From a virus: a stretch of DNA of 20,691 nucleotides. The notes under the pieces are model-generated. The model saw nothing but the letters and a program-made list of their open reading frames with translations. It made no database searches and was not told where the DNA came from. The stretch covers positions 1 to 20,691 of IMG/VR virus record IMGVR_UViG_3300032267_001754. One strand, 5' to 3'. Made by a program: the position numbers and the translations under genes. Below, piece by piece: positions 4,175 to 17,499 of the stretch (its first letter is position 1; every line of letters starts with the position of its first letter).

Positions 4175-4456
4175 ATGAGAACGTTTAATGGACTTCAAAT
4201 TTTTACGGATCAGTTAACAAACACTGGACAACTTGATCTTAGATACATTCAATTAACTGGAAATCAAGAAGTAGTTGGAGAAAAATATTTTTCTTCTGGA
4301 GTTAGAATACAAAATAATTACTCTCCTACTGGAGAATACAGTCCAGGAATTAGCGGACAAATAAAATGGGATAATCAATACATTTATATTTGTGTTAGTG
4401 GAGATGGAACTAATGGAAGATGGTTAGTTTCTCCTTTAGTAGGAAATTGGAGTTAA
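4175..4456 (+). CDS. Type A fibre module protein (93 aa)
   Basis: First of the type A set. The N-terminal cap is MRTFNGLQIFT followed by DQLTNTGQLDLRY, a segment of the kind found between modules of long phage fibres (TGQLDLRY-x-LTGN). A variable middle (residues 30-55) follows, and the C-terminal segment SGQIKWDNQYIYICVSGDG ends in W. The same ends occur in genes at 5477, 8158, 8451 and 10178, and the cap alone at 11525. The protein is small, beta-rich and Cys-poor, with no signal peptide. The next gene begins 4 nt after the stop in another frame, with GGAG 9 nt before its ATG. It is probably a fibre or adhesin segment; whether it is a connector, an adaptor or a tip is not known. Confidence 0.8.
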   Translation: MRTFNGLQIFTDQLTNTGQLDLRYIQLTGNQEVVGEKYFSSGVRIQNNYSPTGEYSPGISGQIKWDNQYIYICVSGDGTNGRWLVSPLVGNWS

Positions 4457-4460
4457 TTTT

Positions 4461-5468
4461 ATGGCAAGTGGATATAGAGATTTATATTTTATAGAAAAAC
4501 AAGCGAACCAAAGTTTTATTAATATTAAAACAGATGACTTTGGATTACAAATTAGCACAGGAAATTTAAATTCTTTTATAATGGGATCTTCTGGTAATTT
4601 TATAAGTTCTGGATTAGCAAATTCTTTAATTTTTGGTCAAGGCCCAAATCGAATAGCTGCGGGTTCAGCTCTTATTTTAGATTCAAGTAGATCAATTATT
4701 ACTGGAGGAGGAGCGGGTTCAATAATTGGTGGAGCAGCAAATGGAATAGGAAGCTCTGGAAGCGTTGGAATAAATGATTGTTATAATTTAATAGCTGGTG
4801 GTTGCAGAAATACAATAAATACACCAGGCTCAAAAAATATTATTCTTGGCGGTGGATTAAATAGAATTGGGAATGGTGGCGAATTATATCTAAATCCAGA
4901 TGGTAGTAGAGGTGCAGGTACTGCAACAAATTTATCTTCTTCAGTACTAACTGATAATGCAATTATGGGAGGCAATCATAATGAAGTTAATGGCGCTCAA
5001 AGATCTATTATTCTTGGAGGTTATTATAATTCTATGGGGCGATTTATTTCATCTACTTCTGCTCGCGATGTTCTCTCTTCTAATATTTTTAATGGTTTTT
5101 GTAATAGCATGTGTACTACTAGCTATTCCACAATAGTTAATGGAGTATATAATAAAATTCTTGGTCCTTCAGCTCCATTTAATACGACTGTTGACATAGA
5201 TATTGCTGCTCCATTTAACAACGCAATATTAAATGGCAGCTATGCTTCTATAAGAGGAAGTGGTATAACTGTAATTAACGATGGAAGATATAGAGGTGGT
5301 GGACTTGGTTTTACTAATAGAGCGGACTATAATAATAGTAGTACAATATATTTAGATGCAACTAGTGGTGTTAATATAGTTACTGGAAATTTAATATTAA
5401 ATTCTACTGCACGAATTAACCCTACAGATCAAGACTTAAGTTTAAATATAACTGGAACAATAGTGTAA
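4461..5468 (+). CDS. Type B fibre protein with YadA-head-like beta-roll repeats (335 aa)
   Basis: A short cap (residues 1-45, MASGYRDLYFIEKQ onwards) is followed by irregular repeats of about 13-20 residues around S-x-I-x-GG-x-x-N-x-I-x-G (for example IITGGGAGSIIGGAANGIG, IILGGGLNRIG, IMGGNHNEVNG) over about residues 45-270. This is the pattern of left-handed trimeric beta-rolls in YadA-like adhesin heads. The C-terminus, ATSGVNIVTGNLILN then INPTDQDLSLNITGTIV, is shared with other type B proteins. Its repeats are less regular than those of the following genes and include long insertions (residues 195-250). It is translated with the preceding type A gene and closes fibre unit 1. Likely a trimeric fibre shaft or adhesin. 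Confidence 0.8.
   Translation: MASGYRDLYFIEKQANQSFINIKTDDFGLQISTGNLNSFIMGSSGNFISSGLANSLIFGQGPNRIAAGSALILDSSRSIITGGGAGSIIGGAANGIGSSGSVGINDCYNLIAGGCRNTINTPGSKNIILGGGLNRIGNGGELYLNPDGSRGAGTATNLSSSVLTDNAIMGGNHNEVNGAQRSIILGGYYNSMGRFISSTSARDVLSSNIFNGFCNSMCTTSYSTIVNGVYNKILGPSAPFNTTVDIDIAAPFNNAILNGSYASIRGSGITVINDGRYRGGGLGFTNRADYNNSSTIYLDATSGVNIVTGNLILNSTARINPTDQDLSLNITGTIV
5463..5468 (+). promoter_or_regulatory. GTGTAA start-proximal motif, fibre unit 2
   Basis: AGTGTAATTCATTTT precedes ATG 5477 with 8 nt between. GTG TAA also encodes the last Val and the stop of the preceding gene, so this sequence does two jobs. Confidence 0.5.
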
Positions 5469-5476
5469 TTCATTTT

Positions 5477-5746
5477 ATGCGTACATTTAATAATCTTCAA
5501 ATTTTCACCAATCAATTGACCAATAGTGGACAATTAGATTTAAGATACCCTAAAATAACAGGAAACAATTCAGTAGTAAATTTGGATGGGGGAATACGCA
5601 TAGGCGGAATGAATGTTCCACCTTACCAAGATTATCCAGGAAACTCTGGAGATATTGCATGGAATCAAACGCATTTTTATATTTGTTTAAGTGGAGATGG
5701 TGCAACTGGTTTTTGGGCAAGATTAAGTTTAGAAAATTGGACATAA
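5477..5746 (+). CDS. Type A fibre module protein (89 aa)
   Basis: It carries the same cap (MRTFNNLQIFT, NQLTNSGQLDLRY) and tail (GDIAWNQTHFYICLSGDG, ending FWARLSLENWT) as its paralogues. The middle, GGIRIGGMNVPPYQDYPGNS, is nearly identical to that of the gene at 8158, including 44 of 48 nucleotides at 5615-5662 versus 8296-8343, which points to recent duplication or conversion. The gene is 9 nt from the next start and in the same frame, so stop-codon read-through would fuse the two; this is not generally true of the array. No strong ribosome binding site precedes the start. Confidence 0.8.
   Translation: MRTFNNLQIFTNQLTNSGQLDLRYPKITGNNSVVNLDGGIRIGGMNVPPYQDYPGNSGDIAWNQTHFYICLSGDGATGFWARLSLENWT
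5615..5662 (+). repeat. 48-nt direct repeat, copy 1 (type A module)
   Basis: GTTCCACC to GATATTGCATGG here matches 8296-8343 at 44 of 48 positions. It encodes VPPYQDYPGNSGDIAW in both genes; all four differences are silent. Confidence 0.8.
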
Positions 5747-5755
5747 GCTATTTTT

Positions 5756-6970
5756 ATGTCAAAAAATCTATATCTTTACTATAGTGGTACAAGATTAAGC
5801 GTAGTACCCACAAAGGATATAGTTTTTACAATATCTCCCACAGGAAACATGTCTTTTGGTGGATCTCAAAATCAAGTTTCTGGAATATATAATAGTATAC
5901 TAGGTGGAAATTTTAATAAAATTTTTACTGGTACTATAAATTCTTTTATTGCTGCTGGATCAGGAAATTTATTATCAGGCAGAACAGAAAATTCAGCTAT
6001 ATTAGGTGGTTATAATAATTTAATATTAAATGCTAGTGGCTCAATAATAAACGCAGGAAATAATAATTATATTTCTGGAGGCGGATATAGTTACATAGGA
6101 GCAGGCACTGGTAATATGATTTTTGGGAGTGGTACAACTGGCGCTATATTATTTGGTATGCCACCAGCAGTAGTTTTTGGAGGTTCTTCTATTGGAGGCG
6201 GAAATGCAAATAGAATATCTGGATTTAATGCAATAATTGGAGGAGGTTGTAATAATTTTATACCAAGATATCCAGTAGGATACTTAACTTTAAATTTAGG
6301 AATTACAAATGTTAACTCAGTAATTTTAGGGGGTTCTGGAAATAGAGCGCTTTCTTTACAATCAAATGTTTTTGGAGGTGGAAATAATTCGGCAGGACAT
6401 CTTTATGCATCAGTCATGGGCGGATCAGGAAATTTCGCTCAAGGTTGTCAATCAACAATACAAGGTGGAGTTAATAATCAAACAGATGGAGCTACTAGCG
6501 CAATTGCAGCTGGACAAAATAATATGATAAGTGGAATAACCACTACTCAAAATAGTTTTATTGGCGCAGGAAAAAATAACATCATAAGAGGTTCCACGAA
6601 TACTACTATATTCGGTGGAAGTAATAATTCTGCAGCTGGGCTTGCATCTAATATTATGGGCGGAACAAACAATACAATAGATTCTTTTTATAGTTCTATT
6701 TTAGGAGGTTCGTTTAATTTTATAGATGGAAATAATTCATTTATAGCTGGTGGAGCAAGAAATACAGTTCTTGGAAATGTATCTGGTGTTTTTGCTATAG
6801 GATCTTTTATTACTGGAAAAAATAATGGTTCTACAATTTTAGCAGACGGAACAAACAGACCAAAAACATCTAACGCAGATCACTCTCTTAATATAAATTT
6901 TTGTAATGGTATATATTTAAAAGGTTCTGAAGCTTCATTTATTACAAATATAACTGGAACAATAGTGTAA
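5756..6970 (+). CDS. Type B fibre protein with beta-roll repeats (404 aa)
   Basis: The cap (MSKNLYLYYSGTRLSVV, then ISPTGNMSFGG) leads into a long, fairly regular run of S-x-(I/V)-x-GG-x-x-N repeats over about residues 35-355, such as SILGGNFNKIF, SAILGGYNNLIL and SNIMGGTNNTIDS. A segment FITGKNNGSTILADGTNR then leads to HSLNINFCNGIYLKGSE and the shared end NITGTIV. The DG-R-x-LT(V/L)DF-NGIY element recurs in four other type B proteins and probably caps the beta-roll. Longest protein of the array, with three Cys. It is coupled to the preceding type A gene and closes unit 2. Trimeric fibre shaft or adhesin by repeat pattern; no intramolecular chaperone domain (such as peptidase S74) is present. 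Confidence 0.82.
   Translation: MSKNLYLYYSGTRLSVVPTKDIVFTISPTGNMSFGGSQNQVSGIYNSILGGNFNKIFTGTINSFIAAGSGNLLSGRTENSAILGGYNNLILNASGSIINAGNNNYISGGGYSYIGAGTGNMIFGSGTTGAILFGMPPAVVFGGSSIGGGNANRISGFNAIIGGGCNNFIPRYPVGYLTLNLGITNVNSVILGGSGNRALSLQSNVFGGGNNSAGHLYASVMGGSGNFAQGCQSTIQGGVNNQTDGATSAIAAGQNNMISGITTTQNSFIGAGKNNIIRGSTNTTIFGGSNNSAAGLASNIMGGTNNTIDSFYSSILGGSFNFIDGNNSFIAGGARNTVLGNVSGVFAIGSFITGKNNGSTILADGTNRPKTSNADHSLNINFCNGIYLKGSEASFITNITGTIV
6965..6970 (+). promoter_or_regulatory. GTGTAA start-proximal motif, fibre unit 3
   Basis: AGTGTAATATTTTTT precedes ATG 6979 with 8 nt between; it also encodes the Val-stop of the preceding gene. Here it leads a type B rather than a type A gene. Confidence 0.5.
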
Positions 6971-6978
6971 TATTTTTT

Positions 6979-8154
6979 ATGCCATCAAATATTTTTTTAC
7001 TATCTAGCGGAGCAAATGGAAGATTAGATCCAGTTTCTGCAGACGGATTACTATTTTTAATTAATCCTACAGGAAATACAGCTTTGGGAGGTGCCACTAA
7101 TATAATTTCTGGATGTAACAACAGTATATTAGGTGGTGAAAAGAATTTAATAATAAATAAATCTAAATCTAGTTTTATTGGTGGAGGAAGTGGAAATATA
7201 ATATATACTGGATTAAATTCTTATATTTTAGCAGGAACAAGTAATAATATAATTTCTGGTTGTAACTCTGCAGTCAGCGCAGGTTTTTGCAACTCTATAT
7301 CTGGAAATAATTCTTTAATAGGAGGTGGTACAGGAAATCTTATAAGATCAAATGGTTCTTCTATTGGAGGTGGAAATGCAAATATAACATCTGGATGTAA
7401 TAGTTTTATTGGCGGAGGTTGTGGAAATATGATTGGCACAGGAGCATTGAATAGTATAATTGGAGGAGGATTTGTTAATAGTGCCCTTGGATGTCAAGCA
7501 ACGGTTGGTGGTGGACGTAATAATAGAGCTTGTAGTTGTTTTTCTACAGTAGGAGGAGGTATAGGAAATGCTGCAGTTAGTTGTCAATCTGTTATAGGTG
7601 GAGGTGGTTTTAACTTGGCTGTAGGAGCTGCAGCTGCAATAGTAGGAGGCTGTACAAATTCAATAAGTTATGGTAATTATTCAAATACAGGTAATCTAAC
7701 CGTTCAACAACTTGACGATTTATTTGCAAATAATTTTCTTGGGGCAGGGATGTTTAACTCTATAAACGTAGCTGCTAATTCAATTTTAGGAGCAGGATGT
7801 TCGAATAGAATTACTTGTTCAAGTAATTCAAGTTTATTAGGAGGGACTTGTAATTGTGTAGTAAGTGGAGATTATTCATCTATTCTTGTAGGACATTTTA
7901 ATAAAAATTCTGGGTCATATAGTACAATATTAGGCGGAATTAATAACATGGTTAATCTTAATGTATCTGGAGCATTTGTTGTAGGATCGAATACAAGAGC
8001 ATACCACAGAGGTTCTTTAATTTTAGCAGATGGTGGATCTAGAACAAAATCAACTGAAAAAGAGCATGCTTTAACTGTAGATTTTGAAAATGGAATATAT
8101 TTTGACGGAATAGAATCAAATTTATCAATTAATTTAACTGGCACATTAATATAA
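6979..8154 (+). CDS. Type B fibre protein, Cys-rich beta-roll (391 aa)
   Basis: The cap MPSNIFLLSSGANGRLDPV is nearly the same as that of the gene at 10451. Beta-roll repeats fill about residues 35-320, interrupted near residues 232-260 by an insertion (NYSNTGNLTVQQLDDLFANN). Fourteen cysteines lie in the repeats, mostly in two places: after the turn (SGCNS, LGCQA) and in the GGG-C-x-N position (GGGCGN, GGTCNC). The closing element is ILADGGSRTKS...HALTVDFENGIYF and the end is LSINLTGTLI, with Ile instead of the usual Val; correspondingly the GTGTAA motif is lost at its stop. It is followed after 3 nt, in the same frame, by a type A gene, reversing the usual A-B order. Confidence 0.82.
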   Translation: MPSNIFLLSSGANGRLDPVSADGLLFLINPTGNTALGGATNIISGCNNSILGGEKNLIINKSKSSFIGGGSGNIIYTGLNSYILAGTSNNIISGCNSAVSAGFCNSISGNNSLIGGGTGNLIRSNGSSIGGGNANITSGCNSFIGGGCGNMIGTGALNSIIGGGFVNSALGCQATVGGGRNNRACSCFSTVGGGIGNAAVSCQSVIGGGGFNLAVGAAAAIVGGCTNSISYGNYSNTGNLTVQQLDDLFANNFLGAGMFNSINVAANSILGAGCSNRITCSSNSSLLGGTCNCVVSGDYSSILVGHFNKNSGSYSTILGGINNMVNLNVSGAFVVGSNTRAYHRGSLILADGGSRTKSTEKEHALTVDFENGIYFDGIESNLSINLTGTLI

Positions 8155-8157
8155 TAT

Positions 8158-8424
8158 ATGAAAACTTTTGGTGGATTAAAAATTTTCACTCCTCAAAATA
8201 TTAATACTGGTGAATTAGATATACAATATATAAAATTATCTGGAAATAATAGTACAGCAAATTTTAATGCAGGGATAAGAATTGCTGGTAGAGAAGTTCC
8301 ACCATATCAAGATTATCCAGGAAATTCTGGAGATATTGCGTGGGACCTTTCACATCTATATATTTGCTTGAGTGGCGATGGAACAACTGGGCTTTGGAGC
8401 AGGTTAAGTTTAGAAGATTTTTAA
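8158..8424 (+). CDS. Type A fibre module protein, divergent cap (88 aa)
   Basis: The cap has drifted (MKTFGGLKIFTPQ, INTGELDIQY) while the middle and tail stay close to the 5477 protein (REVPPYQDYPGNSGDIAW, LYICLSGDGTTGLWSRLSLEDF). The start lies 3 nt after the previous stop with neither a GTGTAA motif nor a Shine-Dalgarno sequence, so translation probably depends on ribosomes finishing the upstream gene. It is the only type A gene placed after, rather than before, its type B partner. Confidence 0.78.
   Translation: MKTFGGLKIFTPQNINTGELDIQYIKLSGNNSTANFNAGIRIAGREVPPYQDYPGNSGDIAWDLSHLYICLSGDGTTGLWSRLSLEDF
8296..8343 (+). repeat. 48-nt direct repeat, copy 2 (type A module)
   Basis: Partner of 5615-5662, with 44 of 48 positions identical and only silent differences. 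Confidence 0.8.
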
Positions 8425-8450
8425 TATATTAATAGTGTAAATATATTAAT
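8423..8450 (+). repeat. 11-nt direct repeats around a GTGTAA motif
   Basis: AATATATTAAT occurs at 8423-8433 and 8440-8450, with AGTGTA between. This is the longest gap inside the fibre block (26 nt), and the second copy ends right before ATG 8451. Confidence 0.6.
8435..8440 (+). promoter_or_regulatory. GTGTAA start-proximal motif, fibre unit 4
   Basis: AGTGTAAATATATTAAT precedes ATG 8451 (10 nt between). It is non-coding: the upstream gene stopped at 8424, and the gap appears to have supplied the motif that the upstream coding end lacks. Confidence 0.55.
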
Positions 8451-8729
8451 ATGCGTACTTTTAATGGTTTAGAAATATTTACCGAACAATTGACTAATAC
8501 TGGTCAATTAGATTTAAGATACGCAAGAGTAACAGGTAATACATCAGAAATTAATCTAAATGCAGGGGTTCGTCTTGGTGCAGGTAATCCACCAACTGGA
8601 ATTTATTCTCCTGGGTATAGTGGCCAAATAGCCTGGGATAATCAATTCATGTATATCTGTTCTAGTGGGAATGGTATAGAAGGAAATTGGTTTGCTATAC
8701 CAGTATATATAAATTGGACTAAGGTATAA
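8451..8729 (+). CDS. Type A fibre module protein (92 aa)
   Basis: It has the standard cap (MRTFNGLEIFT, EQLTNTGQLDLRY) and a tail SGQIAWDNQFMYICSSGNG ending in NWTKV. The middle (GAGNPPTGIYSPGYSGQ) resembles that of the 4175 protein (SPTGEYSPGISGQ) more than those at 5477/8158, so two subtypes of middle exist. The next gene starts 4 nt after the stop, with AAGG 9 nt before its ATG. Confidence 0.8.
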   Translation: MRTFNGLEIFTEQLTNTGQLDLRYARVTGNTSEINLNAGVRLGAGNPPTGIYSPGYSGQIAWDNQFMYICSSGNGIEGNWFAIPVYINWTKV

Positions 8730-8733
8730 ATTT

Positions 8734-9555
8734 ATGGCAACAGACTTAACTAAAATATATCTTATTAAAATTGATGATAGTGGACGAAAAAGCGAAGTCA
8801 AGGCGAGTGAAATTAATTTATTAATTGGCAGTTCTGGTTCAGTTAATTTTGGAATTAATTCTTATGTATCTGGTCGTTCAGCTGCAGTAGTAGGAGGGCT
8901 ATGTAATACGGCATCTGGAGATTGGTCTTCAGTTTTTGGAGGAGCGCTTAATTCAACTTTATCTAGTTATTCTTCTATCGTGGGTGGTTCATACAACTGT
9001 ACTATTGGTGCATATTCTACAATTATTGGCGGTGCATTTAATTGCACTTCAGGAATATATTCTTTAATTGGCGCAGGATATGAAAATTTTGTAGATGGAA
9101 ATGGCGCTGTAATTGGTGGTGGCAATTGTAACTATGTAACTTGTCAAGGAGGTTTTGTTGGAGGCGGCAGACTAAATTGCGTTCAGAATCGTTATGCAGT
9201 TATTGGTGGTGGACAATATAACTGCGCAATTGGTATGTATTCTGAAGCTTTAGGAGGATGCAATAATATAGCAAGTGGTCTATATTCTTTTATTGGTGGT
9301 GGAGAAAAAAATACTGCATTTTCAAACTATTCTTCTATTTTAGCGGGCAGATGTAATTATATAAGTATTTCAGATAGCGGTGCGACAATTCTGAGCGATG
9401 GTCAAGCTCGTCGGCATAATTCTTCTGGTCCTCATACTCTAACATTAGATTTTGCCAGTGGAGTTTATATAAGTGGAGGACTTTATTTAAATGGCAATCA
9501 ATTGCTAATATCAGTAGCTGGATCCGTTTATTCTCCAACAGTAACAGCAGGATAA
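8734..9555 (+). CDS. Type B fibre protein, Cys-rich beta-roll (273 aa)
   Basis: The cap (MATDLTKIYLIKIDDSGRK, IGSSGSVNFG) precedes the most regular repeats of the array, about 14-16 residues long, over residues 45-205 (SVFGGALNSTLSSYS, SIVGGSYNCTIGAYS, TIIGGAFNCTSGIYS). Nine Cys lie here, several at the same N-C position of successive repeats (YNC, FNC, LNC, YNC), which would stack them along the roll. The closing element ILSDGQARRHNSS...LTLDFASGVYI is encoded by a 41-nt stretch identical to one in the 10451 gene. Unlike other type B proteins it ends differently (QLLISVAGSVYSPTVTAG) and is followed by a third gene in the unit, suggesting the C-terminal part has been replaced or split. Confidence 0.82.
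   Translation: MATDLTKIYLIKIDDSGRKSEVKASEINLLIGSSGSVNFGINSYVSGRSAAVVGGLCNTASGDWSSVFGGALNSTLSSYSSIVGGSYNCTIGAYSTIIGGAFNCTSGIYSLIGAGYENFVDGNGAVIGGGNCNYVTCQGGFVGGGRLNCVQNRYAVIGGGQYNCAIGMYSEALGGCNNIASGLYSFIGGGEKNTAFSNYSSILAGRCNYISISDSGATILSDGQARRHNSSGPHTLTLDFASGVYISGGLYLNGNQLLISVAGSVYSPTVTAG
9415..9455 (+). repeat. 41-nt exact direct repeat, copy 1
   Basis: CATAATTCTTCTGGTCC... to ...TTAGATTTTGC is identical to 11408-11448. It encodes HNSSGPHTLTLDFA in both type B proteins. Identity at synonymous positions indicates recent duplication or gene conversion. Confidence 0.85.
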
Positions 9556-9559
9556 TTTT

Positions 9560-10168
9560 ATGCCAGATATCTCATTAATAACAGGAAATTTAACAGTACT
9601 TGGAACCACAACTCTAAGTGGAACAGCGTTTTTACCTTCTGGATATACAAATAATGCTTTTGTACCATCCACGCCAATACAAAGATATTTATTATCTAAT
9701 GGAACAGAATCTACAGTTCCATTTGGTGCGGGTGGAGTTTACGCTACTGGGTTTAAATTTAGTTTTAATTTTTCAAGCCAAGCAGATTTAAATCGTCATA
9801 TAAATACACAAAATTGGTATATAGTAACAGGAACAACTCTGAATGGAAGAGTTCAAGGGAATAACACCACTCAAATAAATAAAACTGGAGTAATAATACC
9901 ATTTCCAAATCCAGCGCCTGCTAGTTTTTTTAGTCAGGCACGGTTAACAAATTATACAATTGACGAAAGATTTAATCATATAGAGCAAAGTGGAGTTTTC
10001 GCTTTACAATCTGAACAAAAAATAGGTTTTGGTACATTTGATCCACAAGAAAAAGTTCACATAGCTGGTGGGAATTTAAAAGTGGATAATACAGGATTTT
10101 TCAATAATATTATAATCAATCCAACTGATTCTAATTTCTTGTTAAATACAACTGGTATATTGGTGTAA
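9560..10168 (+). CDS. Fibre protein without GGG repeats (202 aa)
   Basis: The N-terminus (SLITGNLTVLGTTTLSGTAFLPSG) is of the kind that joins fibre domains. A middle of unknown fold (residues 50-145) follows. Near residue 155 comes IGFGTFDPQEKVHIAGGNLKVDNTG, the GIGT-P-EKLHV-G motif common in phage tail spikes and trimeric adhesins, often just before a chaperone domain, though no chaperone follows here. The end, INPTDSNFLLNTTGILV, is the shared type B end. It follows the 8734 gene after 4 nt with AGGA 7 nt before the ATG. Read together, the 8734 and 9560 products look like one longer type B fibre divided in two genes. Confidence 0.78.
   Translation: MPDISLITGNLTVLGTTTLSGTAFLPSGYTNNAFVPSTPIQRYLLSNGTESTVPFGAGGVYATGFKFSFNFSSQADLNRHINTQNWYIVTGTTLNGRVQGNNTTQINKTGVIIPFPNPAPASFFSQARLTNYTIDERFNHIEQSGVFALQSEQKIGFGTFDPQEKVHIAGGNLKVDNTGFFNNIIINPTDSNFLLNTTGILV
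10163..10168 (+). promoter_or_regulatory. GTGTAA start-proximal motif, fibre unit 5
   Basis: GGTGTAAATATATGGT precedes ATG 10178 (9 nt between), overlapping the Val-stop of the upstream gene. An out-of-frame ATG at 10173 lies between motif and start. Confidence 0.5.
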
Positions 10169-10177
10169 ATATATGGT

Positions 10178-10447
10178 ATGCGTACATTTAATGGGCTTGA
10201 AATATTTACTGAACAGCTAACTAATACTGGTCAATTAGACCTTAGATACCCTAGAATTACTGGAAATGTATCATTAGTAAATCTTAATGCAGGAGTTAGA
10301 ATTGGGTCTAGCTCTGTTCCAGCCTCTCAAAATTCTATAGGATATTCTGGACAATTAGCTTGGAACCAAAGTCATTTATATATTTGCTTAAGTGGAAATG
10401 GGGTATCTAATGGTCTTTGGGCAAGAATTTCTTTGGAGAATTTTTAA
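10178..10447 (+). CDS. Type A fibre module protein (89 aa)
   Basis: It has the standard cap (MRTFNGLEIFT, EQLTNTGQLDLRY, PRITGN) and a tail SGQLAWNQSHLYICLSGNG ending in LWARISLENF. Its tail is closest to those of the 5477 and 8158 proteins and its middle (VRIGSSSVPASQNSIGYSGQ) is its own. The next gene starts 3 nt after the stop; GGAG lies about 13 nt before that ATG. Confidence 0.8.
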   Translation: MRTFNGLEIFTEQLTNTGQLDLRYPRITGNVSLVNLNAGVRIGSSSVPASQNSIGYSGQLAWNQSHLYICLSGNGVSNGLWARISLENF

Positions 10448-10450
10448 TTT

Positions 10451-11515
10451 ATGCCTAGTTTATATAATATATTTCTTCTTTCCAGTGGAGCTAACGGAAG
10501 ATTAGATCCAGTTCCAGCTAGTCAATTTAATTTAGTCTCAAATGATGCTGGAAGTGTTATTCTTGGTAGCACTACAAATAAAATATGTGGAGATAATAGC
10601 AGTATTTTAGCTGGACAAAATAATCTTATTACTGGTATAACCACTCCTGGAGCAGAAATACTTGGTTCAAATTTAATTGGTGGTGGATCTAATAATTGTC
10701 TTTTTTTAAATGGATCAGCAGTTCTAGGTTCTACTTGGACTTGTTTGAGTGGAATAAATTCAACAATAATAGCTTCGACTTTTACTATAGTAAAAGGAAA
10801 TAATTCATTATCTGTTGGAAATGGTAATACTATATGTGGAGATGCAGATTCAATTTTAGGTGGTACAAGTAATTTTATAAAAGGTAGAGTATCATCTATA
10901 ATGGGTGGAAATGCAAATTGCATAGTTAGCTGCTGTAATTCAATAATAGGTGGTGGATATTTTAACAAAATAGCTTCAGCATGTTTTGGATTTCTTGGTG
11001 GAGGAGGTGGAAATTATGTGGGAGGAATAGGTGGAGTTTTAGGTGGCGGAGACGGAAATTGCTCTTTATGTATTTTAAGTTTTGTAGGAGGCGGAAAACA
11101 AAATCTAGAATCTGCTTGTTATTCAGTAATTGGTGGTGGACAAAATAATCAAACTGGACCTGGAACAGGGACTCATACCTTTGAGAGCTATCAAGTCGTA
11201 GCTGGTGGAAACTATAATAGAGCTATTTGGGCAGGTTCTTTTGTAGGAGGAGGATTTGGTAATCATGCTTCAGGATGTTATTCTTCTGTGCTTGGTGGAA
11301 GAAATAACTGCATTTCTGCAAATGCTAATGATAGCTTTATTATTGGTAAAAATGGCAATTTAACTCATAATGGAGCAGGTTTAATAACTGATGGTCAAGA
11401 TAGAGTTCATAATTCTTCTGGTCCTCATACTCTAACATTAGATTTTGCTAGTGGTGTTTTTATTAATCCAGTTGATTCTAATTTTTCATTAAATATAACA
11501 GGATCATTAGTGTAA
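10451..11515 (+). CDS. Type B fibre protein, Cys-rich beta-roll (354 aa)
   Basis: The cap (MPSLYNIFLLSSGANGRLDPV) is shared with the 6979 protein, down to similar DNA. Repeats over about residues 30-300 have the S-x-(I/V)-x-GGG-x-x-N pattern, with a break near residues 235-250 (GPGTGTHTFESYQ). Thirteen Cys are present, including a CC pair (IVSCCNS). The closing element LITDGQDRVHNSS...LTLDFASGVFI contains the 41-nt exact repeat shared with 8734, and the end is NPVDSNFSLNITGSLV. The mosaic of one gene's head and another's closing element shows reassortment of parts within the array. Confidence 0.82.
   Translation: MPSLYNIFLLSSGANGRLDPVPASQFNLVSNDAGSVILGSTTNKICGDNSSILAGQNNLITGITTPGAEILGSNLIGGGSNNCLFLNGSAVLGSTWTCLSGINSTIIASTFTIVKGNNSLSVGNGNTICGDADSILGGTSNFIKGRVSSIMGGNANCIVSCCNSIIGGGYFNKIASACFGFLGGGGGNYVGGIGGVLGGGDGNCSLCILSFVGGGKQNLESACYSVIGGGQNNQTGPGTGTHTFESYQVVAGGNYNRAIWAGSFVGGGFGNHASGCYSSVLGGRNNCISANANDSFIIGKNGNLTHNGAGLITDGQDRVHNSSGPHTLTLDFASGVFINPVDSNFSLNITGSLV
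11408..11448 (+). repeat. 41-nt exact direct repeat, copy 2
   Basis: Identical to 9415-9455; it lies in the closing element of the type B gene of unit 5, about 2 kb from the first copy in the same orientation, so recombination between copies would delete the genes between them. Confidence 0.85.
11510..11515 (+). promoter_or_regulatory. GTGTAA start-proximal motif, fibre unit 6
   Basis: AGTGTAATTATTTTAA precedes ATG 11525 (9 nt between), overlapping the Val-stop of the upstream gene. Confidence 0.5.
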
Positions 11516-11524
11516 TTATTTTAA

Positions 11525-11962
11525 ATGCGTACATTTAACGGATTTCAAATTTTTACAGACCAACTAACTAATTCTGGTCAATTAGACTTAAGGTATCCTC
11601 GTATAACTGGAAATGATCAAGGCGCCAATTTAATATTCGGTGATAATATTCAATCTAATTACAATTTCTATTCAGACACAAATTTCAACGTAACTAATTA
11701 TATAAATATATTTTATTGCACTGGAACAAATGGTTCTTATATAGCTTCTTTACCTAATATCACTGATAAAAAAATGATTATTATAAAAAATTTAAAATCC
11801 ACAAATCCATTAATTATAACTGGATACAATACTAATCAAATTTTTGACAGCTCAGACTCTACCCTAGCGCTTCCTGCTCCAGCTTCAATTGCTTTGGTAG
11901 GTGTAATCAATAACAATTATACTGGATGGGTATGTTTAAAATCTACAGCAGGGATTTCATAA
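11525..11962 (+). CDS. Hybrid fibre protein: type A cap plus a different C-terminal beta domain (145 aa)
   Basis: The cap (MRTFNGFQIFT, DQLTNSGQLDLRY, PRITGN) is type A, but from about residue 35 the protein changes to a beta domain with FYCTGTNGSYIASLPNITDKK, MIIIKNLKSTNPLIITGY, NQIFDSSDSTLALPAPASI and a W near the end. This resembles the small C-terminal domain of many phage fibres in which a Leu-Pro segment, an I-I-K-N strand and a Q/N-I-D/F-D strand follow each other. The next start is 1 nt after the stop (AGGG 11 nt before it). The shared cap with a different end indicates that the caps are a common attachment part and the ends are exchangeable. Confidence 0.78.
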   Translation: MRTFNGFQIFTDQLTNSGQLDLRYPRITGNDQGANLIFGDNIQSNYNFYSDTNFNVTNYINIFYCTGTNGSYIASLPNITDKKMIIIKNLKSTNPLIITGYNTNQIFDSSDSTLALPAPASIALVGVINNNYTGWVCLKSTAGIS

Positions 11963-11963
11963 T

Positions 11964-12998
11964 ATGGCAACATTAAATACAATATATTATCTAAATTCTG
12001 GAAAACAATTATATGTAAATAATGATACAAATCAATTTGTTATTTCTGGTTATCAACTCAGTCTAGATCCTAATTTAAATGCAAATATTTCATTAGTAAA
12101 TCCTCCAAATTTACCAGATTCATTAGGACAAAAAGGAACAATTACATTTGATAAAAATCATGTTTATTATTGTTACGCAGATAATAATTGGTCAAGAGCA
12201 AGATTAGCTGGATGGACAGTAGATTCTACAGTATCTCCAATTGGTATTACAAATCCAAATAATTGGTGGTATTTTACATTAAATTCAGATCCAGTATTTG
12301 GAAATGATTATTTTTTTAGTAATGGAAATGTTACATTTAACTCAAGTGGAGTAAATACAAGTGGAACAAATAATAATGGACTATTTTGCTATAAAACGCT
12401 AGCTATTCCTGGTTGGTCAAAAGCCATGATGTACTATGGACAACCAGAAGGTCTTTATCCTAATAGATTTTCTACAAGTTTCGAAACAAAAAGAGTTAAT
12501 TCTAGTGGATTTTTATTAGGTTCAAAATATGGTCAACTTAATTTTCATTTTGAATTTAGTGGAAATTATTTAGTCTTTAATATGCCAAAGAGTGCTGGTG
12601 GTGGTAATCCAGTCACTGGACAATGGCATAAAATTCCATCTATTTCACAATTTAATAATAGTAGCTATTATCAAGTTGTAGCTACGTTTGATCCAAGAAA
12701 TGATTCTCTTGCTAAATTTTACGTTAATGGAGTTTTACAAGGAAGTGCAAATTATCATTATACTACAGTATCTTTATATAATGGTGGATTTTCATTTAAT
12801 ACAATTCCTCAAGCACAAGGTTTTGGAATTGGAGGAACTCCTCTTGGAAATATAAACGGTGCTCAACCTAATACTTTAACAGAAAATAATAAAGTAATTG
12901 TTAGAAATTTAGGATTTTGGTATGAATACGCTTTAAATCAAACAGAAATTACAGCTCTATATAATGGAGGCACTTTTAGAAAATATCCATTTGCATAA
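11964..12998 (+). CDS. Fibre protein with LamG/concanavalin-like domain (344 aa)
   Basis: Three parts can be read. Residues 1-45 are a type B cap (IYYLNSGKQLYVNNDTNQFVI). Residues 55-83 repeat the type A tail (GTITFDKNHVYYCYADNNWSRARLAGW). From about residue 95 to the end is a laminin-G/concanavalin A-like jelly roll, recognised by YYQVVATFDPRNDSLAKFYVNG, a later VRNLGFWYEYALNQTEI strand and a final LYNGGTFRKYP. Such domains bind carbohydrates in many adhesins, so this is the best candidate in the window for direct contact with host surface glycans. It has no GTGTAA motif of its own and is translated from the upstream gene's message, 1 nt after its stop. Confidence 0.85.
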   Translation: MATLNTIYYLNSGKQLYVNNDTNQFVISGYQLSLDPNLNANISLVNPPNLPDSLGQKGTITFDKNHVYYCYADNNWSRARLAGWTVDSTVSPIGITNPNNWWYFTLNSDPVFGNDYFFSNGNVTFNSSGVNTSGTNNNGLFCYKTLAIPGWSKAMMYYGQPEGLYPNRFSTSFETKRVNSSGFLLGSKYGQLNFHFEFSGNYLVFNMPKSAGGGNPVTGQWHKIPSISQFNNSSYYQVVATFDPRNDSLAKFYVNGVLQGSANYHYTTVSLYNGGFSFNTIPQAQGFGIGGTPLGNINGAQPNTLTENNKVIVRNLGFWYEYALNQTEITALYNGGTFRKYPFA

Positions 12999-13001
12999 TA
13001 T

Positions 13002-13862
13002 ATGATAACAAATAACGAAAATTTATATGGAGTTTATAATGCAGATGGAACTTTAAGTAGTTTCGTAGAGAATAATTCAAATACAGCTTCAAGAGCAGGA
13101 GGAGGCCAAACAATTGGTGGAGGAGAAAATAATACAGTATCTGGAAGTTATTCTACTGTAGTTGGAGGATACAATAATCAAATCATAAATAGTATTTCAT
13201 CCACAATAATTGCAGGACAAAATGGTGTTATTAAAAATCAAAATGGTGCATCATTAATCGCTGATGGAGATAATAGAAATCATTATGCGGATCAGTCTAA
13301 TGCATTAACTATAGATTTTGCAAACGGAATATATTTAAAAAATAAATTTAGCCCACCAACTCCAACTGGATACTATGGAGTTTATAATAAAATTGATACT
13401 TATCCTAATTTAGTTATAGGATCATACCTAGCTAGTCCTCAATACGATAATATTTCTTCAGCAAAAAATTATTATCCATATACAGGGACATCAATAAAGA
13501 TACAAACTAATAATTGGGTTAAAACTCCAGGATATCCACTCGAAAGAATAGATTCTATTTCTTCTATAGAATTAGGACCAAATGGAGTAAAATTAATAGG
13601 AACTAACGCAAATCAACAAGTAGAGGGAAATCCAGCAGTAGCATATATTGATATTAACCGTGATATCACTATTGAAAGTGCAAAAGATGGAAATAGTATC
13701 ACTTTGATTGCAGACGACACAATGGACTTAAATAGTTCAACCACCAATTTAAACAGTTATGATATTAATTTAAATGCCGACCAATATATTAAATTAAATA
13801 GTTTATCTATAATAGATAGAGTGCAAAATTTTTCATTAAATACAACAGGACGATTAGTGTAA
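13002..13862 (+). CDS. Type B-like fibre protein with short beta-roll and long C-terminal domain (286 aa)
   Basis: The cap (NLYGVYNADGTLSSFVENNS) leads to only three or four GGG-N repeats (QTIGGGENNTVSG, STVVGGYNNQIIN, STIIAGQNG; residues 30-75), then the closing element LIADGDNRNHYAD...LTIDFANGIYL. A domain without repeats follows (residues 120-235, with YYPYTGTSIKIQTNNWVK), and a segment with DTMDLNSSTTNLNSYDINLNADQYIKLNS, regular beta sequence seen in fibre stalks. The end, FSLNTTGRLV, is the shared one. It starts 3 nt after the LamG gene with no visible ribosome binding site. As the last fibre gene before unrelated structural genes it may be the terminal or base segment, but order of assembly cannot be read from the sequence. 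Confidence 0.8.
   Translation: MITNNENLYGVYNADGTLSSFVENNSNTASRAGGGQTIGGGENNTVSGSYSTVVGGYNNQIINSISSTIIAGQNGVIKNQNGASLIADGDNRNHYADQSNALTIDFANGIYLKNKFSPPTPTGYYGVYNKIDTYPNLVIGSYLASPQYDNISSAKNYYPYTGTSIKIQTNNWVKTPGYPLERIDSISSIELGPNGVKLIGTNANQQVEGNPAVAYIDINRDITIESAKDGNSITLIADDTMDLNSSTTNLNSYDINLNADQYIKLNSLSIIDRVQNFSLNTTGRLV
13857..13862 (+). promoter_or_regulatory. GTGTAA start-proximal motif before the 214-aa gene
   Basis: AGTGTAATAATATTAA precedes ATG 13872 (9 nt between) and overlaps the Val-stop of the last fibre gene. The gene it leads is not a fibre gene, so the motif is not limited to the array. Confidence 0.5.
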
Positions 13863-13871
13863 TAATATTAA

Positions 13872-14516
13872 ATGTCTTTTTTGAACGCAAATATTCCTCC
13901 GATAGAATGTTATGTTCGTGGGAATTACATGAGGAATCAAGAAGATAGTTTTGATAAAAAATATAAATGCTTAATTTTTGGTGTTACAAGTCTTCCTAGC
14001 CAAGCTCCACTTTTTAATTTTCTTATGGAAGATGGTGGAATTTGGTGGCATGCTCCTATTAGTGCATTTTGTCATAAAGAAGATGCTCCAACTATGGAAT
14101 TAACAGAGTTAGAGCTTTGGGATAGTTTTAGTTACCATATAGCCGTAACAACTTTTTATTTACTAGAAAATAAAGTACTTAAATATACAGGAAGAACTGG
14201 CAACGAATATATGGGAACTTATTTATTTACTCTTGATTGGGCTCATAGCGATTACAACGAATTAAATTTTGGATTTAGTCAAAAACCAGATCAACACAAA
14301 GCTGGGCATGTTATTAAACTTGATAATGGTAATTTTGCTATTCAACCAAATAATAGAATTAAAGTTTTTGATCCAAGTTTCGCTACAAAACCAAATGAAT
14401 CGGTTTTGGAAAGAAAAATAAATAGTCATATTTATACTGCTGAAAATAGTCCAAAATGGATTACTGAAGACAGTAATAACTATAACTACAACATAAAGGA
14501 AATAAAAAGTGAATAA
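13872..14516 (+). CDS. Conserved phage protein of unknown function (214 aa)
   Basis: The start is MSFLNANIPPIECYVRGNYM, followed by CLIFGVTSLPSQAPLFNFLMEDGGIWWHAPISAF, a distinctive aromatic stretch, and DWAHSDYNELNFGFSQKPDQHKAGHVIKLDNGNFAIQPNNRI. Proteins with this look occur in large aquatic phages and appear as uncharacterised conserved proteins, from memory. There is no membrane helix, signal peptide or nucleotide-binding motif. Its 3' end overlaps the start of the next gene by 8 nt. Likely a structural or assembly protein by position. Confidence 0.75.
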   Translation: MSFLNANIPPIECYVRGNYMRNQEDSFDKKYKCLIFGVTSLPSQAPLFNFLMEDGGIWWHAPISAFCHKEDAPTMELTELELWDSFSYHIAVTTFYLLENKVLKYTGRTGNEYMGTYLFTLDWAHSDYNELNFGFSQKPDQHKAGHVIKLDNGNFAIQPNNRIKVFDPSFATKPNESVLERKINSHIYTAENSPKWITEDSNNYNYNIKEIKSE

Positions 14517-15600: not shown

Positions 15601-17499
15601 TTATTCAGATTTTTTGCTGTGATACAATAAACTAGCTAAATAACTATCGACTTGATGCTCAGAAGCAATTGATTGAATTTCGTTTACTTGATTTAAATTT
15701 TGATCAAATGGTTTTTCAATATAATCCTGTATCTTCACCTTCCATTGATCAGAATTTTCATTTGCTATAATTAATTCTGTAATTTTTTCTGCCATGTCTT
15801 TTTGTGCATTACTTAATTTTTTGATTTCAAATTTTTTCCTCAAAGAACCCTTAACTTCTTCTTCAAGATCTTGAACAGCTAAAATATTTTCTCTTATTTT
15901 AAGAACAGAAAAGGCTTTTGAACTACCAATTGGTTTTACATTTTTTGTAGACTGAGGAGTACCCGTTGAACCCATAGGTCTTCCAGCTTGAGCACCACCA
16001 CCAATAAGTGGTTGATAAAATCCTTGATCTTTTAATTCTCTAAATTTTTGTTGAGATTGTACAGATTCTTCTGGAGTAGGCAATCTTCCAGTTTCTATAG
16101 CTTGAATTCCTTCGTCAGCAGTTAATACTCCAAGCTCAACCAATCTGTTGTATATTCTAGAATATTGTACATCATCTTTAAGACTAATATCTTCAAATAC
16201 TGGAACTGGAAAATTCTTAAATCCTAAATCTTTACTAATTCTTCTTATTTCTGGTATTAAAAATTCATTTAAGAAAACTTCTCTTGCTTGCTTTAGTCTT
16301 TCCATGAAAACTTGGACTTTAATACTTGTATTAGCAAATTTTTCACTGCCAATAAGAATATTATTTAATCCAATTTGAATATCTCTATCAACTACTTCAT
16401 ATTTCTCTGGTCCGATTAAACTTCCGATATCAGGAATTACGAATTGAGCTTTGGTTGTATAATCTGCGATTAATACTCTACCAACACTTTGATTTTCAAA
16501 TAATTGCTGCATGGATTGTAAATTTTTCTGATTGATTCCACCTTTATCAGGCTCGTTACCCATAGTAACTAAAAGAATAGCCTGTTGAGTTGTTCTTGTA
16601 ACTGCCATGTCCATTTTTTTCATTTCTAATTTCCAGTTAATATCATCTAATACTGGAAAACCCATTGGAATTGAGAGTGGTTCGTAATCTTGTTTTTTAT
16701 AAAAAACTGCAGCCATCTTTTTAGGATCTAATGGAACTAAAATATAAGAGTTACCTTTATTTTTTATCTTTTCTTTTATATCGGCTGGTAGTCCTTCGTA
16801 AACTTCTATATCTTCGTCAGTTTTTGGATCTCTAAGTTTTTCTAATTCGTAACTACTTAATAATTTATAATACATATTATTAGAATAATTTACCCCACCA
16901 CCAACATAAACATCTGCTGGATTAATTATTGTATATCTTACAGGAATTTTAATTGATCCGTCTTTAGCTAAAACTTTTGAACCAAATACCTGAGTGATTT
17001 TTAATACTTGTTCAGAATCTAAGGAAGTATCAAATCTGTAAGTAAATACATTGCCACTTCTATAGTATTCTCTAAAAAATTGATCTTGAAAACTTGTTAA
17101 ATTAATCTTTTTAAAATATGCATCAAAAAATTCTCTTGATTTTTGACTTCCACCAGTTAAATAGATAGAACTAGCAGAGAACTCTGTCATTAAATCTATT
17201 GTGTTTCTAAAAATTGCAACATTATAATAAGCTTTTTGACAAAGTATAACGGCATCTCTTACATCTAGGGTAGATAAATTTTTAACATAATTAGAATATC
17301 TAAATGGAATAATTCCATTATCAATATTTGTAAACCTATTAGTTCTTTCGATTGTACTAGCAGCGTTTCTTCTAACTGGAGAACTTCCTCTTGCTTCTGA
17401 AGCGGTTAGTTTTCTTTCTGAACCATAAACCATTAATGGTGATATTTGCTCTTCTGTAGACGCTTTGATTTCTTGTATTTTTTTGGTATTTTTCTTCAT
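15601..17499 (-). CDS. Portal protein (632 aa)
   Basis: The portal is the dodecameric ring at the capsid vertex through which DNA enters and leaves, and to which terminase docks. The assignment rests on the immediate downstream position of terL, the length, and recognisable regions: VRDAVILCQKAYYNVAIFRNTIDLMTEF (residues 80-107), the FFREYYRSGNVFTYRF strand pair (141-156), the wing region with IINPADVYVGG, and a stem/crown-like part GLNNILIGSEKFANTSIKVQVFMERLKQAREVF. A Gly-rich linker (GGGAQAGRPMGSTGTPQ) near residue 500 precedes a charged C-terminal tail of about 110 aa. Start ATG 17499 has a GTGTAA motif 12 nt upstream and no Shine-Dalgarno. The gap from the terL stop is 18 nt. Confidence 0.85.
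   Translation of the reverse strand: MKKNTKKIQEIKASTEEQISPLMVYGSERKLTASEARGSSPVRRNAASTIERTNRFTNIDNGIIPFRYSNYVKNLSTLDVRDAVILCQKAYYNVAIFRNTIDLMTEFSASSIYLTGGSQKSREFFDAYFKKINLTSFQDQFFREYYRSGNVFTYRFDTSLDSEQVLKITQVFGSKVLAKDGSIKIPVRYTIINPADVYVGGGVNYSNNMYYKLLSSYELEKLRDPKTDEDIEVYEGLPADIKEKIKNKGNSYILVPLDPKKMAAVFYKKQDYEPLSIPMGFPVLDDINWKLEMKKMDMAVTRTTQQAILLVTMGNEPDKGGINQKNLQSMQQLFENQSVGRVLIADYTTKAQFVIPDIGSLIGPEKYEVVDRDIQIGLNNILIGSEKFANTSIKVQVFMERLKQAREVFLNEFLIPEIRRISKDLGFKNFPVPVFEDISLKDDVQYSRIYNRLVELGVLTADEGIQAIETGRLPTPEESVQSQQKFRELKDQGFYQPLIGGGAQAGRPMGSTGTPQSTKNVKPIGSSKAFSVLKIRENILAVQDLEEEVKGSLRKKFEIKKLSNAQKDMAEKITELIIANENSDQWKVKIQDYIEKPFDQNLNQVNEIQSIASEHQVDSYLASLLYHSKKSE

Follow-up and report, generated by a model that had tools for sequence, protein, structure and literature searches.

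Cysteine-rich beta-roll repeat proteins in a tailed-phage gene cluster and a possible coat of surface thiols on fibre shafts

The virus record IMGVR_UViG_3300032267_001754 (IMG/VR, positions 1 to 20,691; this whole stretch of 20,691 bases is called the window here) encodes a large terminase, PhoH, an endolysin-like gene, and an ERCC4-type nuclease, and its source, judging from these genes, is a tailed phage. Three of its repeat proteins, g6979, g8734, and g10451, are rich in cysteine, and nearly all of these cysteines sit at a few variable positions of a 15-residue beta-roll turn, where the side chains most likely face the solvent. Exposed cysteine is normally among the rarest surface residues, and a surface that is about one-tenth cysteine over tens of turns, found in 81 of 119 sampled viral open reading frames (ORFs) of this fold and in none of 51 ORFs from genome assemblies, calls for an explanation. 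The one that we favor, tentatively and with a probability of roughly 0.42, is that selection has given probably trimeric beta-roll fibre shafts of a tailed phage a coat of dispersed surface thiols, which are probably free.

Cysteine-rich repeat proteins of the window

A preliminary description of this DNA had reported 14, 9, and 13 cysteines in the three proteins and few in g4461, g5756, and g13002, and both statements agree with our counts, the first exactly (Table 1). Together, the three proteins hold 36 cysteines in 1,018 residues versus 9 in 1,571 residues for g4461, g5756, g9560, g11964, and g13002 (odds ratio 6.4, p = 2.7e-8). However, g13002 and g4461 have only 2 and 5 full turns, and the 18-turn g5756 is the true internal cysteine-poor contrast. 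Turn positions were numbered 1 S, 2 x, 3 I/V, 4 G, 5 G, 6 G, 7 x, 8 x, 9 N, 10 x, 11 A, 12 x, 13 G, 14 x, 15 x, with the register assigned by a cyclic hidden Markov model in which cysteine was masked (scored neutral). On this numbering, 34 of the 36 cysteines lie at positions 7, 8, 10, 12, 13, and 14, one lies in an insert between turns, and one lies outside the repeats; positions 1-6, 9, 11, and 15 hold none, hence there is none at the putative core and axis positions. That cysteine frequently recurs at the same repeat position, as had been noticed, is explained by its confinement to few variable positions.

When each protein was searched singly with phmmer, its best solved relative was the UspA1 head 3pr7 (E = 2e-13 for g6979, 6.6e-17 for g8734, and 7.5e-9 for g10451). 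The repeats share with UspA1 the 15-residue turn, the conserved G-G-G-x-x-N-x-A-x-G, and the hydrophobic inward residue, and by these features the three proteins are predicted to be GGG-type left-handed beta-roll repeats, which from their relation to UspA1 are probably homotrimeric. Weak matches to the Pfam family LbR_Ice_bind (PF21300), below the Pfam cut-off, were obtained for these three and for g5756, and the searches with g6979 and g8734 also weakly matched PDB entry 3ult, a grass ice-binding beta-roll. Two AlphaFold monomer models reached a mean predicted local distance difference test (pLDDT) score of 72 and 74, with many short strands. Foldseek returned no PDB match with E <= 0.001 for either monomer model, and for the first of them the 50 VIA-align matches listed (Foldseek's own only) included tailspikes, lyases, an antifreeze protein, and other repeat folds but no trimeric autotransporter beta-roll head. 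No membrane-anchor family was present among the Pfam matches of the window proteins at E <= 0.1, in searches that were not aimed at anchors.

Survey of viral and genome relatives

Viral contigs were scanned with a pair of DNA patterns in which Gly, Asn, and (in the second) Ile/Val are fixed, and no Cys; the samples are drawn from the matches listed and are not a census; genome contigs were scanned once, likewise among the matches listed, and searches of 395 and 74 genomes were added. In the first round, 91 of 188 candidate ORFs passed (at least 6 turns, score > 60), namely 45 viral ORFs (set A), 25 genome ORFs, 4 ORFs of the window, and 17 whose loci had been retrieved by searching with window proteins; these 17 were excluded from the unbiased samples. 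The second round passed 74 of 90 candidates (viral set B), and the genome searches contributed 26 non-redundant ORFs, for 51 genome ORFs in total, all from bacterial or archaeal assemblies. ORFs with at least 2% cysteine in the repeats were called cysteine-rich, a cut-off picked after inspection of the first-round list. Six near-identical viral loci are present in the surface totals below and were removed for the stacking, composition, and spacing analyses.

The repeats of set A contain 971 cysteines in 25,418 residues (3.8%), and the non-repeat parts of these ORFs contain 173 in 19,486 (0.89%); the repeats of the first genome set contain 19 in 7,052. The cysteine content of viral repeats is bimodal, with 36 of 45 ORFs in set A and 45 of 74 in set B being cysteine-rich (among these 81, five nearly duplicate another), and not one of the genome ORFs reaches 2%. 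At the surface positions 7, 8, 10, 12, 14, and 15, cysteine accounts for 1,786 of 21,246 residues in viral ORFs versus 5 of 5,712 in genome ORFs, and for 1,754 of 19,454 versus 0 of 1,624 where the guanine-plus-cytosine (GC) content of the locus is below 0.45.

The carriers appear to be phages. Seven of ten neighbor proteins on ten cysteine-rich contigs match PHROGs at E <= 1e-5, including portal, terminase, head-tail adaptor, and virion structural families, as does one of four further neighbors (a tail sheath, L272); cysteine-poor contigs are phage too, with 9 of 10 neighbor proteins matching. The repeat proteins are predicted to be phage tail fibres from the tailed-phage gene cluster of the window together with fibre-type domains in relatives. 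For instance, three of six long cysteine-rich ORFs have collagen-like stretches, and two of those three match PHROG tail fibre families. In L298, L284, and L034, collagen-like stretches and cysteine-rich beta-roll arrays occur in one phage protein. The cysteine-rich contig L266 has four cysteine-rich beta-roll frames in a 6-kb piece, each with 3-12 cysteines outside the repeats as well.

Nine contigs of sets A and B contributed more than one ORF, and on each of them the ORFs agree in cysteine class, so richness is mostly a property of the virus, with exceptions in the window, L009, and L014, where cysteine-poor proteins stand beside cysteine-rich ones. A single virus clade as the source seems unlikely, since C-terminal caps differ, the same cap is found on cysteine-rich and cysteine-poor fibres, and just 19 pairs reach at least 60% identity. 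Cultured phages gave no tblastn match to g6979 or to the cysteine-rich ORFs of L127 and L017, which is a weak negative as BLAST masks low complexity. L019 retrieved 30 records, of which 28 were Synechococcus phages, and two Synechococcus regions inspected were without such repeats; a motif count found none in an uncultured-phage region (L264) either, and L293 matched one E. coli phage, judged by annotation alone.

Orientation of the cysteines

Passages of the BpaC paper (PMC9543794) place the trimer core of left-handed beta-rolls at repeat positions 5 and 7 and D/E at position 2 outside, and describe UspA1 turns as mostly 15 residues long, with an extra Gly at position 9, and a rise of 4.8 A per turn in BpaC; a passage on YadA-type heads (PMC2483945) puts the SVAIG motif on the inner strands. 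Motif alignment suggests that positions 2 and 4 of our numbering are the published core positions 5 and 7, and the other correspondences were drawn likewise.

In set A, cysteine makes up 9.4, 9.8, 8.0, 7.6, 6.3, and 11.0% of residues at positions 7, 8, 10, 12, 14, and 15 and at most 0.9% at positions 1-6, 9, and 11, with 0.06% and 0.79% at the putative core positions 2 and 4. The cysteine-rich ORFs of set B have the same profile (8-16% at the six positions, about 1% or below at 1-6, 9, and 11), and position 13 is lower in both (2.8% in set A, 4.5% in cysteine-rich set B). In the 51 genome relatives, charged residues hold the same six positions (23.8, 19.3, 16.5, 9.2, 26.3, and 9.9%, versus at most 2% at 1-6, 9, and 11), which argues that the cysteine side chains most likely face the solvent. 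The preliminary description, which rightly saw beta-roll repeats, a probable trimer, and an unusual richness in cysteine, had also proposed that the cysteines face each other around the trimer axis; the position profile does not support this part. The sparse cysteines of the cysteine-poor beta-rolls (51 genome and 38 viral ORFs), unlike those of the cysteine-rich phage fibres, are mostly at positions 1 and 4, which are probably buried (1.0 and 1.0% in genome ORFs, 1.0 and 3.4% in viral ORFs, where position 15 also has 1.0%).

Composition and evidence for selection

The base composition at four-fold-degenerate sites was used to derive a mutational expectation. Surface cysteine amounts to 10.1% in cysteine-rich ORFs versus 1.7% expected, a 6.0-fold excess that base composition does not explain, to 0.3% versus 2.8% in cysteine-poor viral ORFs (0.1-fold), and to 0.1% versus 3.1% in genome relatives (< 0.05-fold). 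For Gly and Ala, the excess over this expectation is larger still (11.4- and 9.0-fold in the cysteine-rich set, whose base composition predicts few of them), so that the sixfold figure by itself is no proof of selection; the difference from the other two sets carries more weight. A cysteine-rich proteome overall was also rejected, as the other ORFs on cysteine-rich contigs average 1.03% cysteine (756/73,076). Along the arrays, surface cysteine is spread nearly evenly, at 9.2 to 11.0% by fifths (p = 0.055).

Stacking, pairing, and motif tests

Stacking was compared with position-preserving shuffles within each protein. In the window, adjacent turns have cysteine at the same position in 5 pairs versus 5.0 expected (603 of 1,000 shuffles reach 5), and the 76 cysteine-rich phage ORFs have 219 stacked pairs versus 209.2 (z = 0.9) and 30 triples versus 30.2. 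The cysteine ladder suggested earlier was thus rejected, its stacking being no more than chance in either sample. By the same measure, stacking was strong for Ser (z = 8.2), Thr (5.5), Tyr (5.5), and Asn (3.0), like that of Cys for Phe (1.0) and Gln (-0.4), and avoided for Lys (-2.5) and Arg (-2.1). Taken by set, cysteine had z = -0.7 in the first (36 set A ORFs and 9 query-fetched) and 1.8 in the replicate, and a faint stacking tendency may exist. Two other patterns were dropped on replication: a pair from position 12 to position 13 of the next turn (17 versus 5.1 in the first set, z = 6.0, in 14 ORFs; then 1 versus 5.6), and a general avoidance of cysteines within the same layer (z = -3.6, then -0.4).

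With the 76 ORFs pooled (first set included), CxC (67 versus 102.5, z = -4.0) and CxxC (44 versus 79.9, z = -4.9) are depleted, but CC shows no such deficit (z = -0.2). A single CxxC, in g10451, and no HxH occur in the three window proteins, and the repeat regions of the 76 ORFs have only two HxH. In the sequences, we therefore found neither the excess of cysteine at stacked or fixed partner positions expected of a disulfide-stapled fibre nor the clustered CxC/CxxC ligands of a metal site. Neither of these two suggestions of the preliminary description is indicated, though both are still chemically conceivable.

Conservation

Comparison with related loci gave a mixed answer. In L009, whose protein is 91% identical to g6979, 11 of 14 cysteines are kept, 3 are lost, and 2 are gained, with the run C172, C187, C202 among those kept. 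The orthologs of g8734 are 97% (L013/L009) and 96% (L014) identical and keep 9 of 9 cysteines in L009 and 8 of 9 in L014. The slot of g10451 in L009 holds a different, also cysteine-rich protein (15 cysteines in a 498-residue stop-to-stop frame), a beta-roll protein that carries an N-terminus of the MxTFxGxxIFT type, an arrangement that suggests cassette exchange. Over all pairs with at least 60% and less than 99.5% identity, surface cysteines are identical in 142 of 161 counts versus 1,386 of 2,005 for other surface residues, a total over mixed divergences and including some pairs without cysteine, to which we therefore give little weight. Two pairs favor cysteine conservation (12/14 versus 80/164, and 24/24 versus 108/148).

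Proposed explanation and alternatives

We propose that folding of the fibres takes place in the reducing cytoplasm of the host, with their cysteines as free thiols, and that after lysis the dispersed thiol coat would be exposed and would react with partners outside the chain. Candidate partners are host envelope or slime, by thiol-disulfide exchange, other fibres, by fibre-fibre links, and metals, by loose capture; such reactions might strengthen reversible attachment. Selection for exposed thiols is the best reading because tolerance would leave cysteine roughly at the mutational level and because cysteine is avoided by other phage fibres with this fold, and reaction with outside partners is preferred to fixed disulfides or metal sites because there is no partner preference and CxC/CxxC are lacking.

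Several points weigh against a selected thiol coat. That the thiols are free, reactive, or used is presumed, and the outward orientation is predicted from sequence. Stacked cysteine pairs are not avoided, unlike what strict protection of free thiols would predict. Cysteines of the window are no better conserved than their neighbors when counted in both directions (20/25 versus 130/157 in g6979, 4/7 versus 150/197 in g5756), and one pair with 60% identity shares no cysteine at all (0/9 versus 52/139 other surface residues). Many viral relatives have few or no cysteines, with 38 of the 119 sampled ORFs below 2%. Finally, low GC is confounded with the trait, cysteine-rich ORFs making up 47 of 50 viral ORFs at a locus GC of 0.30-0.35 and 1 of 10 above 0.50, and this confounder remains, with just two genome controls near GC 0.35, both without repeat cysteine.

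Other explanations share part of the evidence. Release from constraint, by which exported bacterial adhesins shun cysteine on account of periplasmic oxidation and phage fibres folded in the cytoplasm merely tolerate it, would fit the genome relatives, whose surface cysteine is far under the mutational expectation, as well as the turnover of cysteines in g6979, which resembles that of other surface residues; part of one report also describes an engineered disulfide that stalls secretion of an autotransporter passenger (PMC8419823). The avoidance in genome relatives is understandable because, if exported like known adhesins, they cross the oxidising periplasm, but their export is only presumed, and we find release unlikely, since tolerance should yield no more than roughly the mutational level, not a 6.0-fold excess beside 0.1-fold in cysteine-poor phage fibres, with the remaining ORFs of cysteine-rich contigs at 1.03%. 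Equally outside the thiol proposal, cysteine could serve as a small, uncharged, mildly hydrophobic surface residue that packs on polysaccharide or on other fibres and undergoes no thiol chemistry. In the first sets, to which these comparisons are limited, charged surface residues are fewer in cysteine-rich viral ORFs (10.9% versus 15.5% in cysteine-poor viral and 18.8% in genome ORFs) and Ile is somewhat higher (3.7% versus 2.2 and 2.3%). Ala, Val, and Met, which would do equally well, show no comparable rise (cysteine-rich viral versus genome: A 4.3/6.4%, V 3.6/3.4%, M 0.4/0.6%), which makes this improbable.

The remaining alternatives give the thiols fixed partners. Disulfide stapling, in which outward cysteines of adjacent turns or across subunits oxidise after release and lock the shaft, gains from the rise of 4.8 A per layer in a solved beta-roll (PMC9543794), which would bring same-position neighbors near disulfide range, from the consecutive run in g6979 that is kept in L009, and from the 408 of 1,794 cysteines with a same-position neighbor. 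Nevertheless, about three quarters of the cysteines have no such neighbor, stacked pairs and triples are at chance, and the lone strong pair, 12-13, failed replication, so that we regard stapling as quite unlikely. In T4 gp37, iron-binding His pairs sit on the fibre axis. HxH motifs, according to part of PMC11705849, let phage fibres bind iron, and metal binding by cysteine could be seen as a counterpart of such sites in T4 gp37 and in the fibres of marine phages; general chemistry would also let dense surface thiols take up soft metals non-specifically. With CxC and CxxC depleted and HxH almost missing from the repeats, a metal role for these cysteines is distinctly improbable. As for stacked cysteines that face each other around the trimer axis, nothing beyond the repeated motif speaks for them, and if the UspA1-like register holds, their lack at positions 2 and 4 in the window and scarcity there in set A make this arrangement extremely improbable.

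Going beyond a selected thiol coat in the window, one may speculate that thiol-coated fibre shafts evolved more than once in widespread A+T-rich tailed phages, as a reversible covalent adhesive switched on outside the cytoplasm; we consider this wider claim doubtful. Such an adhesive would probably comprise tens of thiols per chain and hundreds per virion. Were the thiols free and put to use, phages would have a new mode of attachment; were they to become random disulfides, a new way of toughening virions. The avoidance of cysteine in genome relatives also hints at how powerful an influence secretion may have on this fold.

Comparison with known systems

The head of UspA1 from Moraxella catarrhalis (3pr7), a trimeric left-handed parallel beta-roll with 15-residue turns, shares the motif S-x-[IV]-G-G-G-x-x-N-x-A-x-G-x-x with the phage proteins. 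However, UspA1 is a bacterial adhesin and the present proteins belong to a phage gene cluster, and the aligned UspA1 stretches hold charged or polar residues, and no cysteine, at the variable positions. YadA and BpaC heads are alike in having two strands per turn, an inner strand toward the axis, and outward variable positions, as far as passages of PMC9543794 and PMC2483945 describe them; they differ in their 14-residue turn, and the BpaC paper (PMC9543794) does not use the word "cysteine" in its main text. The grass ice-recrystallisation inhibitor (3ult; PF21300), which has a different biological role, is a weak match to the window proteins, and the cysteine-rich L040 matches above the Pfam cut-off. 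Iron-binding HxH fibres (T4 gp37, Alteromonas phage R22Y) likewise repeat a side-chain chemistry along a trimeric fibre, by the account in part of PMC11705849, but with paired His that binds iron in place of dispersed outward cysteines. The beta-roll fold is known, and an outward cysteine coat on phage fibres was not found described: among the papers listed by the literature searches (openly licensed ones only, which is not proof of absence), none dealt with cysteine-rich beta-roll phage fibres.

The gene cluster and its surroundings

From 4175 to 13862, short ORFs of about 90 aa are interleaved with the repeat-protein genes (Table 1).

Table 1. Predicted fibre genes and interleaved short ORFs of the window
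Feature	Coordinates	Strand	Description
g6979	6979..8154	+	391 aa, 14 Cys, all at turn positions 7, 8, 10, 12, 13, 14; predicted GGG-type left-handed beta-roll fibre protein
g8734	8734..9555	+	273 aa, 9 Cys at positions 7, 8, 10, 13; predicted beta-roll fibre protein
g10451	10451..11515	+	354 aa, 13 Cys: 11 at positions 10, 12, 13, 14, 1 in insert, 1 outside repeats; predicted beta-roll fibre protein
g5756	5756..6970	+	404 aa, 18 turns, 3 Cys; Cys-poor paralogue, 47% identical to g6979
g4461	4461..5468	+	335 aa, 5 full turns, 4 Cys; Cys-poor relative
g13002	13002..13862	+	286 aa, 2 full turns, 0 Cys; relative
Short ORF	8158..8424	+	88 aa, MxTFxGLxIFT type, between fibre genes, single Cys at residue 70
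Short ORF	8451..8729	+	92 aa, MxTFxGLxIFT type, single Cys at residue 70
Short ORF	10178..10447	+	89 aa, MxTFxGLxIFT type; weak match to phrog_17312 (PHROG tail family), E = 0.00049

Between 4175 and 11962, ORFs of 88-145 aa with an MxTFxGxxIFT start, mostly with one cysteine near residue 70, alternate with the larger fibre genes. The ORF at 15601-17499 adjoins the terminase and has no PHROG match at E <= 1e-5 and no tblastn match in the phage collection; by its position, this long ORF perhaps encodes the portal. The product of 11964-12998 contains a Laminin_G_3 / concanavalin-like domain (Pfam, E = 1.6e-6) and is perhaps a sugar-binding fibre tip. Beside the fibre cluster, 13872-14516 strongly matches PHROG 3704 (E = 4.6e-57), annotated as ferredoxin, which we treat as a putative label only.

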